From a bacterium (GTDB lineage: Bacteria > Patescibacteriota > Minisyncoccia > JAHIHE01), in the NCBI GenBank assembly GCA_030693205.1, contig JAUYBG010000005.1, positions 73,017 through 124,024 on the forward strand: 51,008 nt of DNA. The letters are read 5' to 3'. How positions within the stretch are numbered: the stretch's first letter is position 1; each line of letters starts with the position of its first letter. Below are positions 17,052-38,387 of this stretch, in pieces. The notes beneath the pieces are model-generated. The model saw nothing but the letters and a program-made list of their open reading frames with translations. It did not search any database and was not told the DNA's origin. A program made the position numbers and the translations under genes.

Positions 17052-18890
17052 ATGTGTGGAATAATCGGCTATACTGGCCCTCAAAAAACTTTAGACATTT
17101 TAATTTCAGGATTGAAAAATCTTGAATATCGCGGTTATGATTCCGCGGGTGTTGCCATAGCGGGCAATAAAAATAATATTTTTTCTTTAAAAGCAAAAGG
17201 GCGGATTTTGGTTTTGGAAAATCTTTTGAAAGAAATTGGCAATATGGAACACGACAGAGCGGGTATTAGCCATACGCGCTGGGCGACGCACGGAATTCCC
17301 AATGAAACCAATGCTCATCCGCATCAAGATTGTACCGGAAAAATTTGGGTGGTGCATAACGGCATTATTGAAAACTATCGCGCTCTTAGGAAAAAACTCG
17401 AATCCGAAGGGCATAAATTTGTTTCCGAAACCGATACCGAGGTTTTATCGCATTTGATAGAAAAATACTATAAAGGTGTGTTGGAAGACGCAGTGCGTCT
17501 GGCGCTTAGGGAAGTTATTGGCGCTTACGGAATTGCCGTGATTTCCGCTTCTGAACCGGATAAGATCGTTGCCGCGCGATTATCCAGTCCTTTGATCATT
17601 GGCATCGGAGATGGCGAGGCTTTTGTGGCCTCGGATGTTTCGGCAGTTATCAATTTTACCAGAAAGGTAATCTATTTGGATGATTCCGAAATGGTGATCA
17701 TAACTCCAAAAAACTACAAGATCATGGATTTGGAAAATCATGTGGTAGAAAAACAGATTAAGGAAATTGGTTGGGAAATGCAAGAGGCGAAAAAAGGCGG
17801 TTTTTCCCATTTTATTTTTAAAGAAATTTATGAAGAACCAGAGGCGATCAAGAACGCTATTCGAGGAAGAATAAACAAAGAAGAAGGTATCGCGAAGCTT
17901 GGTGGGCTCGAAATGGCAAAAAAACAATTGGCCGAAATTGAAAGATTGGTAATTGTGTCTTGCGGAACTGCGTCTTATGCAGGAAAAGTGGGAGAATATA
18001 TGATGGAAGAATATGCCGGTATCGCCACTGAAGCGGAAGTCGGTTCTGAGTTCAGATATAAAAAACCGATTTTAGATAAAAAAACTGCGGTGTTGGCTAT
18101 AAGCCAATCAGGCGAAACTGCTGATACTCTGATGGCAGTTCGGGAAGCAAAGTTAAAAGGATCTTTTACCTTTGGGCTGGTTAATACAGTAGGGTCGAGT
18201 ATTGCGCGCGAGTGCGGCGTTGGTGTTTATAATCATGCCGGCCTTGAAGTGGCTGTGCCGGCCAGCAAAAGTTTTGTTTCCCAATTGTCTATTTTAGCGC
18301 TTATTACCGTTTTTTTAGGGCGCCAAAGGCAAATGTCAAATGTAATGGGCACGCGTATTCTAAATGAATTGGAAAACTTGCCGGTTTTGGCTCAAAAGAT
18401 ATTAGAACAGGATAATAATATAAAAAATCTTGCGAAAAAGTATTCAAGCTATAAAAACTTTTTGTACTTAGGGAGAAAATATAATTATCCGATCGCTTTG
18501 GAAGGGGCGCTCAAACTTAAGGAATTAGCCCATTGCATTCACGCGGAAGGATATCCGGCAGGTGAAATGAAACATGGGCCGATCTCTATGATTGATGAAG
18601 ATTTTCCGTCTATAGTTATTGCTCCAAGTGACAGCGTTTATGACAAGATGTTTAATGCCGTGCAAGAATTAAAAGCGCGGAATGGGAAAGTTATCGCGAT
18701 CGTTACCGAAGGTAATGAGGAAATGAAAAATTTTGCCGATGATGTGATATATATTCCCAAAACCCTTGAAATGCTTACGCCTATTTTATCCGTTATTCCC
18801 CTTCATCTTTTTGCCTGCCATATGGGAGTATTCCATAATTGCGATATCGATAAGCCTAGGAATTTGGCTAAATCAGTGACCGTAGAATAA
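17052..18890 (+). CDS. glmS: Glucosamine-6-phosphate synthase (isomerising)
   Basis: Converts fructose-6-P and glutamine to glucosamine-6-P, the first step toward UDP-GlcNAc. The N-terminal nucleophile Cys2 is present (MCGIIGYTG), with glutaminase motifs LEYRGYDSAG and SHTRWATHG. Two SIS sugar-isomerase domains follow (SCGTASYAG, AISQSGETADTL; LGRKYNYPIALEGALKLKE), and the conserved C-terminal DKPRNLAKSVTVE tail is intact. Length (612 aa) is normal. No glmS-ribozyme-like leader is evident upstream; only an inverted repeat lies there. Confidence 0.97.
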   Translation: MCGIIGYTGPQKTLDILISGLKNLEYRGYDSAGVAIAGNKNNIFSLKAKGRILVLENLLKEIGNMEHDRAGISHTRWATHGIPNETNAHPHQDCTGKIWVVHNGIIENYRALRKKLESEGHKFVSETDTEVLSHLIEKYYKGVLEDAVRLALREVIGAYGIAVISASEPDKIVAARLSSPLIIGIGDGEAFVASDVSAVINFTRKVIYLDDSEMVIITPKNYKIMDLENHVVEKQIKEIGWEMQEAKKGGFSHFIFKEIYEEPEAIKNAIRGRINKEEGIAKLGGLEMAKKQLAEIERLVIVSCGTASYAGKVGEYMMEEYAGIATEAEVGSEFRYKKPILDKKTAVLAISQSGETADTLMAVREAKLKGSFTFGLVNTVGSSIARECGVGVYNHAGLEVAVPASKSFVSQLSILALITVFLGRQRQMSNVMGTRILNELENLPVLAQKILEQDNNIKNLAKKYSSYKNFLYLGRKYNYPIALEGALKLKELAHCIHAEGYPAGEMKHGPISMIDEDFPSIVIAPSDSVYDKMFNAVQELKARNGKVIAIVTEGNEEMKNFADDVIYIPKTLEMLTPILSVIPLHLFACHMGVFHNCDIDKPRNLAKSVTVE

Positions 18891-36328: not shown

Positions 36329-37414
36329 TTATTTCATTATCGCATAATTTCCGCTTCCCAAGTTTCGCACCAGTCCTTTCATTTCCATAAGCGTCAGAGC
36401 GCTGGATATTTTATTTGCATCGTTTTTAACTTTTTCAGCAATGGCGTCTATGTGGAGCGGTTCGGCGCCGAGAAAAGATAAAATAGTTTCTTCTTCCGGC
36501 GATGCGGAAACAATACTTCTATTAATAGTATATTCCTTGGCTTTAGTCAAGTTTAGTTCGTCAAGAATCTCTTGGCAAGAGGTGATTATTTTTGCTCCTT
36601 GCTTGATTAAATTGTTTGTTCCGACCGAGTTCGGCCAATGAATTCCGCCCGGGATCGCAAAGACATCTCTATTGCAATCAAGAGCAAGCTTGGCTGTGAT
36701 GAGGGCGCCTGATTTTTCCGCCGCTTCGACTACCAGCACTGCCGGAGTGAGTCCGCAAATAATTCGATTTCTGAGAGGGAATTGGTGTTTTAGCGCGGGT
36801 TTTCCGAATGCGTATTCGGAGACAAGGGCGCCGTGCGCGATGATTTTTTCCGCGATTTGTTTCCGGGGGGAAAGATTGTATGAATCAAGTCCGGAAGCCA
36901 GAACCGCGATCGTTTTCGCGCCGTTTGATATCGCGGTTTCGTGCGCGGCAGTATCAACGCCATATGCCATTCCGCTGACAATGCTTAATCCGGATCTTGC
37001 CAGGCCGCCAACGATATCGTTTATTACCTGGGTGCCGTAAGAGGATATTTTTCTTGATCCTACAACTGCCAGAGGAAAATTTAAGGCTTCGGTCAGCTGG
37101 CCTTTTATGTAGAGTATCGCGGGAGGCGAATAACTTTCTTTTAAAAGTTTCGGATAATTTTTATCATTAATTGTTATGGCAGTGATTTGCTCTTTGGCTA
37201 ATTTTTCCCATTCTTTATCGGGAGAGATTGCCGGGCGCAGGCTTGTTATTTTTTCGGTTAACGATTCGTCCAGTCCGCTTTGTTTCAGTTCTTGAGCGCT
37301 GGCGTGCCAGGCATTTTCCAAATTTTTAAAATAAAACGATAATTTTTTAAATCTGACCGGTCCTATTTCTCCGATAAGATTAAAAGCGTTATAATATTTA
37401 GTATCGTCGGTCAT
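36329..37414 (-). CDS. dprA: DNA-processing protein DprA
   Basis: Loads RecA on incoming single-stranded DNA in natural transformation. The N-terminal helical SAM/HhH-like region (about 1-70) precedes the Rossmann core with VVGSRKISSYG, GLSIVSGMAYGVDTAAHE and PLRNRIICGLTPAVLVVEA, and the C-terminal winged helix (about 295-361, IDAIAEKVKNDANKISSALTLMEMKG). Length (361 aa) is normal. It is transcribed with topA. It suggests DNA-uptake competence, widely inferred for CPR bacteria. Confidence 0.95.
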   Translation of the reverse strand: MTDDTKYYNAFNLIGEIGPVRFKKLSFYFKNLENAWHASAQELKQSGLDESLTEKITSLRPAISPDKEWEKLAKEQITAITINDKNYPKLLKESYSPPAILYIKGQLTEALNFPLAVVGSRKISSYGTQVINDIVGGLARSGLSIVSGMAYGVDTAAHETAISNGAKTIAVLASGLDSYNLSPRKQIAEKIIAHGALVSEYAFGKPALKHQFPLRNRIICGLTPAVLVVEAAEKSGALITAKLALDCNRDVFAIPGGIHWPNSVGTNNLIKQGAKIITSCQEILDELNLTKAKEYTINRSIVSASPEEETILSFLGAEPLHIDAIAEKVKNDANKISSALTLMEMKGLVRNLGSGNYAIMK

Positions 37415-37446: not shown

Positions 37447-37474
37447 TTGACAAATTTTATATATCTGCTATAAT
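37447..37474 (+). promoter_or_regulatory. Strong promoter of the 37.5-kb non-coding RNA
   Basis: Perfect consensus TTGACA (37447-37452), 16-bp spacer and TATAAT (37469-37474). It is the best promoter match in the window. Confidence 0.8.
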
Positions 37475-37481
37475 ATTTAGT

Positions 37482-37650
37482 TCTAACGAATATGTATCCA
37501 GTGCATTACTTCTCAGTATTCTACTGGCAAGTCGCGAACGCATGCCTATCCTCCTTGGTTATGCTAGTAGCCATAAGTTAAAGTTAGCTTTTTATAAAGC
37601 AAAACTTTTCACTTGTCGGTAGTATTTTGAGAAGTAATTTTTGTTCTTTT
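37482..37650 (+). ncRNA. Candidate structured small RNA with an anti-Shine-Dalgarno loop
   Basis: About 170 nt without a plausible ORF. A closing stem pairs 37505-37532 with 37611-37638 (26 of 28 positions, including G-U), with a U-rich tail (37638-37650) serving as terminator. Inside are two hairpins. The first, GCATGCC (37540-37546) with GGTTATGC (37557-37564, one bulge), shows loop TATCCTCCTT; the second lies at 37580-37608. The loop sequence CCTCCTT (37550-37556) equals the 16S anti-SD. Not SRP RNA, tmRNA or RNase P by their key motifs. A divergent 6S RNA cannot be excluded, although the Y-shape is unlike it. Confidence 0.7.
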
Positions 37651-37745
37651 AAAATAATTCTTGCAGGAAGAAAATCGGGTATTAATGTCGGTCGAGAATT
37701 TATTTTCTTGACCTTATTTTTTTGTCAAAACTTCAAATTAATATT

Positions 37746-37772
37746 TGTCATGCTGAATTTATTTCAGCATCT
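37746..37772. repeat. Palindromic REP, TGTCATxCTGAA..TTCAGxATCT family (copy 1)
   Basis: TGTCATGCTGAA followed by TTATTTCAGCATCT. An intergenic member of the family also found at 37828-37854 (reverse orientation) and 50962-50988. Confidence 0.8.
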
Positions 37773-37817
37773 TTAAGACTCACTTATAGTATTATGGATT
37801 ACTATTGTGTGTTATAA

Positions 37818-38387
37818 TTATTTTTTTAGATCCTGAAATGAATTCAGGATGACAGGAATAGTCTTTTCAACAACCGCATTAATTATTTTCTGTTCTTCTG
37901 CTGTAAAATTTTCCAAAACAAATTCTTTTGTAAGAATTTGTTTTGCCCCGAGCTTGTCGAGGGGCTTATCTTCAATCCCGATTCCTATCCGAATTCTGGT
38001 AAAATCTTTTGTTTCCAGCGCATCAATGATCGATTGTACTCCTTTGTGTCCGGCGGAAGTGCGGCCCCGCGCGATCTTGTATTTTCCGAGCTGAATATCC
38101 AGATCATCGTGAATGACGATAATATCCGCAACATTGATTTTATAATAATCAGCGATAGCCTTGACCGCTTTGCCCGATTCGTTCATAAAAGTTTGCGGTT
38201 TGGCAAGAATAATTTTTTCGCCATCAATCATTCCTTCCGAAATTTCCGCGTTAAATTTAAGTTGTTTGCCCCGAGCGGAGTCGAGGGGAAAATTGGCGGC
38301 GATTTTATCAAGCGCCATAAATCCGGCATTGTGCCGGGTTTTTTTATATTTCTCACCCGGATTTCCCAGGCCGATGATTAGTTTCAT
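37818..38387 (-). CDS. pth: Peptidyl-tRNA hydrolase carrying three repeat-derived peptide inserts
   Basis: Releases tRNA from peptidyl-tRNA. Family motifs are LIIGLGNPGEKYKKTRHNAG (catalytic His19), PQTFMNESGKAV, VIHDDLDI and RTSAGHKGVQSI. Three stretches are translated repeats: PLDSARGK (residues about 34-41, from a CCCCGAGC palindrome), KPLDKLGA (about 140-148, a variant copy), and the C-terminal VILNSFQDL (about 177-186, from a TGTCATCCTGAA-type REP). All keep the frame and fall in variable loops or the tail, so the enzyme is probably functional. Confidence 0.93.
   Translation of the reverse strand: MKLIIGLGNPGEKYKKTRHNAGFMALDKIAANFPLDSARGKQLKFNAEISEGMIDGEKIILAKPQTFMNESGKAVKAIADYYKINVADIIVIHDDLDIQLGKYKIARGRTSAGHKGVQSIIDALETKDFTRIRIGIGIEDKPLDKLGAKQILTKEFVLENFTAEEQKIINAVVEKTIPVILNSFQDLKK
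37828..37854. repeat. Palindromic REP, TGTCATCCTGAA family (copy 2, within pth)
   Basis: AGATCCTGAAATG then AATTCAGGATGACA; reverse orientation relative to copy 1. It encodes the C-terminal tail of Pth. Confidence 0.8.
37946..37964. repeat. CCCCGAGC..GAGGGG palindrome variant (copy 2, within pth)
   Basis: A 19-bp element CCCCGAGCTTGTCGAGGGG in frame in pth. Confidence 0.8.
38269..38288. repeat. CCCCGAGC..GAGGGG palindrome (copy 3, within pth)
   Basis: The same 20-mer as at 32693-32712, coding residues 34-40 of Pth. Confidence 0.85.

Follow-up and report, generated by a model that had tools for sequence, protein, structure and literature searches.

Among the described bacterial RNAs, the alpha-r14 (NfeR1) RNAs of Sinorhizobium meliloti appear to be the closest analogue of the RNA analyzed here, albeit with a different structure; these RNAs present an ultraconserved CCUCCUCCC motif on three hairpins and silence mRNAs through pairing at the ribosome binding site, a mechanism that has been tested (PMC10746234). 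What the two RNAs share is an invariant unpaired anti-Shine-Dalgarno (anti-SD) motif combined with stems that vary in sequence, which is a likeness rather than kinship. NfeR1, compared by description, comes from alpha-proteobacteria and has three hairpins with CCUCCUCCC, whereas the present RNA comes from Patescibacteria, is encoded at a dprA-pth locus and has two hairpins, of which a single one carries CCUCCU, together with a closing stem of 27 bp and a motif in an internal loop. Because the three-hairpin CCUCCUCCC feature is absent, we place this RNA outside the alpha-r14 family. Similarities of a more general kind exist with 6S RNA (RF00013), which has the same length, a long closing stem and its own promoter, and with the bacterial signal recognition particle (SRP) RNA (RF00169, RF01854), which is likewise a single-copy RNA with a long stem. 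However, 6S RNA contains an open central bubble, which is missing here, with an invariant C-rich loop present instead, and SRP RNA contains a conserved helix 8, which is missing here as well, together with any match to the SRP RNA models and, in these genomes, any ffh gene above the cut-off. CcnA of Caulobacter crescentus, a noncoding RNA with C-rich loops that reportedly modulates CtrA and GcrA, comes from another phylum and resembles the present RNA by description only.

The locus lies in a 51,008-nt stretch of DNA (hereafter, the window; all coordinates are positions in it, with the strand as marked), between the divergent dprA and the convergent pth genes (Table 1). The initial annotation recognized an ORF-free region driven by a strong promoter and folding into a long closing stem that encloses two hairpins and ends in a U-rich run, and all these features were recovered: the promoter matches the sigma-70 consensus at 12 of 12 positions, the + strand contains no ORF of at least 50 aa between ~37171 and ~37848, the closing stem (P1) has 26 paired over 28 positions and is directly followed by the U-rich run, and the two internal hairpins, P2 and P3, are supported by covariation. 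Given the position of the promoter, transcription probably starts near 37481, and the transcript would extend to ~37655 or to ~37721. Between the RNA and pth (37748-37860), short inverted repeats of the GTCATGCTGAA...TTCAGCATC and ATCCTGAA...TTCAGGAT kind were noticed by eye.

Table 1. Features of the RNA locus and its flanks in the window.
Feature	Coordinates	Strand	Evidence and details
dprA, divergent upstream neighbor	36329..37414	-	Pfam PF02481
Sigma-70 promoter, TTGACA-16-TATAAT with TG ahead of the -10 box	37447..37474	+	12/12 consensus matches
Conserved RNA core, 139 nt	37503..37641	+	Third covariance model (the window copy is one of its 55 sequences), 102.2 bits, E 7.4e-22; fold z -4.54
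P1 closing stem, 5' strand	37506..37532	+	Fold, covariation
P2 hairpin	37533..37572	+	Outer helix 37533-37535/37570-37572, inner helix 37540-37546/37558-37564
P2 internal loop, 5' strand	37536..37539	+	Family consensus GAAA, window GAAC; column counts
CCUCCU anti-SD hexamer in P2 loop	37550..37555	+	56/56 members; predicted unpaired probability 0.93 here
P2 internal loop, 3' strand	37566..37569	+	AGTA; column counts
P3 hairpin, variable in sequence	37580..37608	+	Its two helices 90.2% and 86.0% of cells paired
P1 closing stem, 3' strand	37611..37637	+	Fold, covariation; 93.9% of cells paired, 55 sequences
U-rich run, immediately 3' of P1	37638..37655	+	Sequence
Second terminator-like hairpin and T run	37690..37721 (hairpin 37690-37713)	+	Sequence
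pth, convergent downstream neighbor	37818..38387	-	Pfam PF01195

The initial annotation had left this RNA unassigned, and the search of Rfam 15 bears this out: at the curated thresholds, the window yields nothing except a tRNA, the relaxed thresholds add weak unrelated matches only, and, in 20 diverse relatives, no match falls on the RNA. A plain BLAST search with the region produced a single convincing relative, G001, from another genus of the same family, in which the promoter and both flanking genes are kept, and a BLAST search against phages produced nothing. The first covariance model, built from the window sequence and G001, gave matches in 14 of 112 genomes; the second one (14 sequences), at E≤0.1, in 46 of the 383 genomes of the window's class and 27 of the 286 genomes of the phylum; and the third one (55 sequences, with laxer filters) in 17 of 35 near relatives. 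Within the window's order, the third model matched 14 of the 18 genomes; the four without a match are G002 and three that are 67-70% complete. The matches are confined to one place per genome, barring a few weak ones and antisense shadows, which arise at the RNA loci because strong stems match on both strands. The 56 loci compared below represent 30 of the 46 matching class genomes and all 27 phylum genomes, with G000 common to both sets; G033 and G023 (L109 and L110) were added after these 56, and G304, with a weak match of 52 nt, was left out. Translation as such does not depend on the RNA, given that many genomes of the class lack a match.

A scan of genome contigs with a sequence pattern retrieved 15 stretches, 11 of which match the third model and are all labelled Patescibacteria or Doudnabacteria; the named organisms are Patescibacteria, mostly Doudnabacteria. 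The other four stretches come from outside the phylum (WOR-3, Sphingobacteriaceae, Puniceicoccaceae and Neobacillus) and were taken as chance occurrences because they produce no match to the third model at E≤1. The near version of the scan pattern recovers 7 of the 56 known members and thus provides weak evidence for absence of the RNA outside the phylum; the first DNA pattern had 0 matches among viral contigs. No description of the RNA was found in the open-licence full-text literature, and we rate it as a new, previously unlisted family common to many tiny-genome bacteria of Patescibacteria. At the level of sequence comparison, the analysis demonstrates the family itself, its structure, the invariant loop, the predicted openness of this loop and the genomic setting. 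Beyond the initial annotation, it adds the spread through the phylum, the dprA-pth synteny, the loop E-like internal loop and the strong-SD ORFs 3' of the RNA.

The region 37482-37660 folds with a predicted energy of -46.8 kcal/mol, compared to the mean of -29.6 kcal/mol for shuffled sequences (z -4.54; none of the 200 shuffles was as good). The consensus structure comprises 27 pairs in P1, 3 + 7 pairs in P2 and 6 + 4 pairs in P3, with 92.7% of cells paired across the 55 sequences. In this alignment, which is biased towards the consensus structure because a model with that structure guided the fitting, 46 of the 47 base pairs changed on both sides (controls, 25-30 with slid partners and 33.6 on average with shuffled letters). 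Its covariation score reaches 0.744, compared to 0.11-0.16 with slid partners. The E-value limit excluded antisense matches of the same loci from this alignment, and the short-core sequence L087 (G403) was also left out. A MAFFT alignment of 14 sequences made with no structure fitting gives the same picture, with 33 of the 47 pairs changed on both sides, compared to 12-15 with slid partners. All 10 pairs of P2 vary on both sides in some members of the 55-sequence alignment, and its internal loop, with GAAA opposite AGUA, is taken by us to resemble the sarcin-ricin/loop E motif. For the window copy alone, the P2 hairpin that displays the loop belongs to the second-best fold, 0.8 kcal/mol over the minimum, and is preferred over that minimum because covariation supports P2.

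The loop of P2 presents the sequence CCTCCTT (37550-37556; two occurrences in the whole window), in agreement with the earlier proposal that the first hairpin displays the anti-SD, and the expectation that the loop would be conserved while the stems covary was likewise confirmed. CCUCCU, the longest invariant stretch of the RNA, is exact in 56 of the 56 members and in 13 of the 13 further ones (4 duplicate cores), that is, in 65 of 65 distinct members, a count that covers the fetched loci and leaves out about 15 class genomes with matches for which no locus was fetched. The mean predicted probability that the hexamer is unpaired is 0.91, compared with 0.31 for the whole RNA, and exceeds 0.5 in 53 of the 56 members. 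Conservation extends beyond the hexamer, with A and then Y ahead of CCCUCCU and A or U after it in the loop. In 53 of the 56 members, C precedes the hexamer, and in the other 3 it is T, as in the window's own family, but A, the base of 16S rRNA at this position, never occurs. The 3' tail of 16S rRNA in three relatives is GGATCACCTCCTTT, so that the loop hexamer is identical to their anti-SD. For one test SD, the predicted duplex energy is -11.1 kcal/mol with the loop and the same with the 16S tail, suggesting that the RNA could compete with the tail for AGGAGG; with GGAGGUGAU-type SDs, judging from the letters, the 16S tail makes extra pairs that are absent from the loop. Pairing with SDs leaves the conserved C before the hexamer unexplained because few of the AGGAGG SDs have G directly after the motif, with no preference for G (by reading of the list, uncounted).

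Homologs of dprA, identified by clustering, are the upstream neighbors in 41 of the 56 members, and homologs of pth are the nearest downstream ORFs in 31, the window being included in both counts. At seven loci (L047, L048, L049, L054, L056, L070 and L073), the upstream neighbor looks, by eye, Mfd-like rather than dprA, so pth may be the older neighbor. Promoter-like sites 5' of the core have a mean best score of 11.3 across the 56 relatives, compared with 9.1 for shuffled upstream sequence, and in most of these relatives the best site contains a perfect TTGACA. Within 160 nt downstream, 19 of the 56 loci have the start of a strong-SD ORF on the same strand; on the divergent side, this holds for one of the 56 loci (p 7.5e-6), and among random positions, for 102 of 2720. 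These downstream ORFs encode proteins of 45-122 aa, many of which look like membrane proteins, with zero BLAST similarity to one another, and may sit behind a strong promoter and nothing more. Classified by what lies downstream, the 56 loci include 24 with a terminator-like site and without a strong-SD ORF (the window copy among them), 16 with such an ORF and no terminator before it, 3 with both and 13 with neither.

Strong SDs at the proper spacing precede 5.3% of 301 ORFs, compared to 1.7% in the control, in a sample of about a third of the window's genome. The mean excess of strong SDs is 5.8 points in 15 genomes with the RNA, which come from the window's class and others, against 2.0 points in 10 genomes without it, all from the window's class (p 0.025, uncorrected for kinship). 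The association is weak, modest in size with overlapping groups; contrary genomes are G072, which lacks the RNA and shows an excess of 8.1, and G368, which has the RNA and shows -1.3. The initial annotation held that exactly four genes in the window could pair with the loop. This stands for genes 7455 (AGGAGG) and 8608 (GGAGG) but not for 10317 and rpsU, which are poor targets because their SD letters are GAGGUG, that is, only GAGG and then U, with four pairs to the loop; further candidates in the window are 251 (AGGAGG with a 3-nt spacing) and 11483 (GGAGG, start uncertain). No shared, specific target of the RNA was found. Pfam families above the cut-off were detected in 4 of 20 AGGAGG genes (all those listed from G000, G553 and G097 plus one from G240, from simple ORF calls), compared to 11 of 20 genes of matched length that lack SD-like letters, a borderline difference (Fisher p 0.048).

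In G000 and other genomes with the RNA, genes with a perfect AGGAGG are mostly without a Pfam family (loci L089-L108, L150-L169 and L226). In G097, perfect SDs precede a reverse transcriptase gene (PF00078; L164:16708-17658, - strand) and a nearby gene for a zinc-ribbon-like small protein (18021-18401, - strand). The same genome carries adjacent genes for a ThyX-like protein and thymidylate kinase (L161:2930-4978, - strand), both with AGGAGG SDs, unlike most of the housekeeping genes seen in G097.

With the anti-SD letters always exposed in the loop, the RNA may switch off the few strong-SD genes, and we see about an even chance of its being an antisense RNA, one whose loop offers a free copy of the anti-SD and rivals the 16S tail for binding to the few strong SDs, in trans and perhaps also in cis; its expression, its pairing and repression by it are inferred. 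The same-strand strong-SD ORFs at 19 of the 56 loci and the rarity of strong SDs in these genomes speak for this interpretation. Sequestration of SDs in trans and sensing of free S21/30S had been proposed in the initial annotation as possible functions. In this family, one gene per genome, with its own sigma-70 promoter, encodes an RNA with a closing stem of ~27 bp and two hairpins, in which P2, braced by the conserved internal loop, displays CCUCCU that is predicted to be single-stranded. Under the antisense mechanism, the loop would pair with the AGGAGG-type SDs of a minority of mRNAs, with a predicted energy equal to that of the 16S tail, and this pairing would block the binding of the 30S subunit. 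The RNA of a stand-alone gene would act in trans, and cis action is possible at roughly one-third of the loci, namely, those followed on the same strand by a small strong-SD ORF. Genes without an SD, the majority here, would be spared; repression would be expected of AGGAGG-led messages only, and not of those with GAGGUGAU or without an SD. Against this antisense interpretation stand the 13 loci with neither a terminator nor a strong-SD ORF, the conserved C before the hexamer, the weakness of the SD association, the mutual dissimilarity of the downstream ORFs and the fact that no shared, specific target emerged. A broader version, in which the RNA is a global switch that turns down the entire SD-led class, so that the SD would be mainly a regulatory tag rather than a general start signal, seems to us possible but doubtful, as does, to the same degree, its premise that the strong-SD minority in Patescibacteria consists of small, mostly accessory genes.

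The main rival of pairing with mRNAs, given that the loop is conserved beyond the needs of SD pairing, is that it mimics the 16S 3' tail and thereby acts as a decoy for a protein with affinity for this tail or for C-rich RNA, candidates for which are Era, another KH- or S1-domain protein or S21. We consider this rather unlikely, and equally so its corollary that the RNA serves to sense or titrate the assembly of ribosomes, with no need for mRNA pairing. The extended loop consensus, including the base before the hexamer that is conserved without matching an SD base, fits a decoy, and the conserved GAAA/AGUA internal loop would be a suitable place for protein binding; however, the base before CCUCCU is never A, unlike in 16S rRNA, and the strong-SD ORFs downstream are left unaccounted for.

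These downstream ORFs are the starting point for another interpretation, namely, that the RNA is mainly a cis-acting leader, in which the loop masks the SD of the downstream gene until a signal arrives, the stand-alone forms being derived or targeting a distant gene. The 19 loci with a nearby same-strand ORF, 16 of them without a terminator before it, are consistent with a leader, but the 24 loci with a terminator-like site and no such ORF, including the window copy, are not, and the lack of relationship among the downstream ORFs as well as the placement of the loop distal to the 27-bp stem also render a leader unlikely.

Both identities with well-known RNAs are unlikely. The initial annotation named a divergent 6S RNA, which would imitate an open promoter and bind RNA polymerase, as the main alternative, a proposal for which we find no support. 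The length, the long closing stem, the sigma-70 promoter and the single copy would all fit, and, with 0 of 18 genomes matching the RF00013 model at E≤1 (positive controls, 6 of 14), the 6S role may be vacant. Nevertheless, this identity is very improbable: RF00013 has no match in the window or over the RNA at the loci of the 20 relatives, and an open central bubble is lacking, as the alignment leaves ~2 nt on the 3' strand between P3 and P1, and the 5' strand folds as P2; moreover, we know of no 6S feature that corresponds to an invariant CCUCCU loop. Replacement of SRP RNA in a lineage without a recognizable SRP, as could be imagined from 0 of 18 genomes matching RF00169 and RF01854 each (positive controls, 11 of 14 and 10 of 14) and from ffh above the cut-off in none, can be practically dismissed, because no Ffh would be available to bind the RNA, P3, which occupies the position of helix 8, is variable in sequence, and most genomes of the class have neither a match to the RNA nor ffh. 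A helix-8 pattern with 1 mismatch, run without a positive control, matched 0 of 20 genomes. As an observation in its own right, the SRP pathway seems to be missing in the window's class: the ffh model TIGR00959 (positive controls, 14 of 14) produced one match at E≤1e-10 among 383 genomes, and none over the cut-off.

The present analysis adds a covarying, widespread RNA gene to a phylum for which no such RNA is described in the open-licence literature found. This RNA offers a specific test, with a six-letter loop on one side and a countable set of strong-SD genes on the other. If the proposed mechanism is true, the Shine-Dalgarno sequence would serve in such a bacterium as the tag of a class of genes, countered by an antagonist of its own, and this would be relevant to the long-standing question of why genomes differ so much in SD use.
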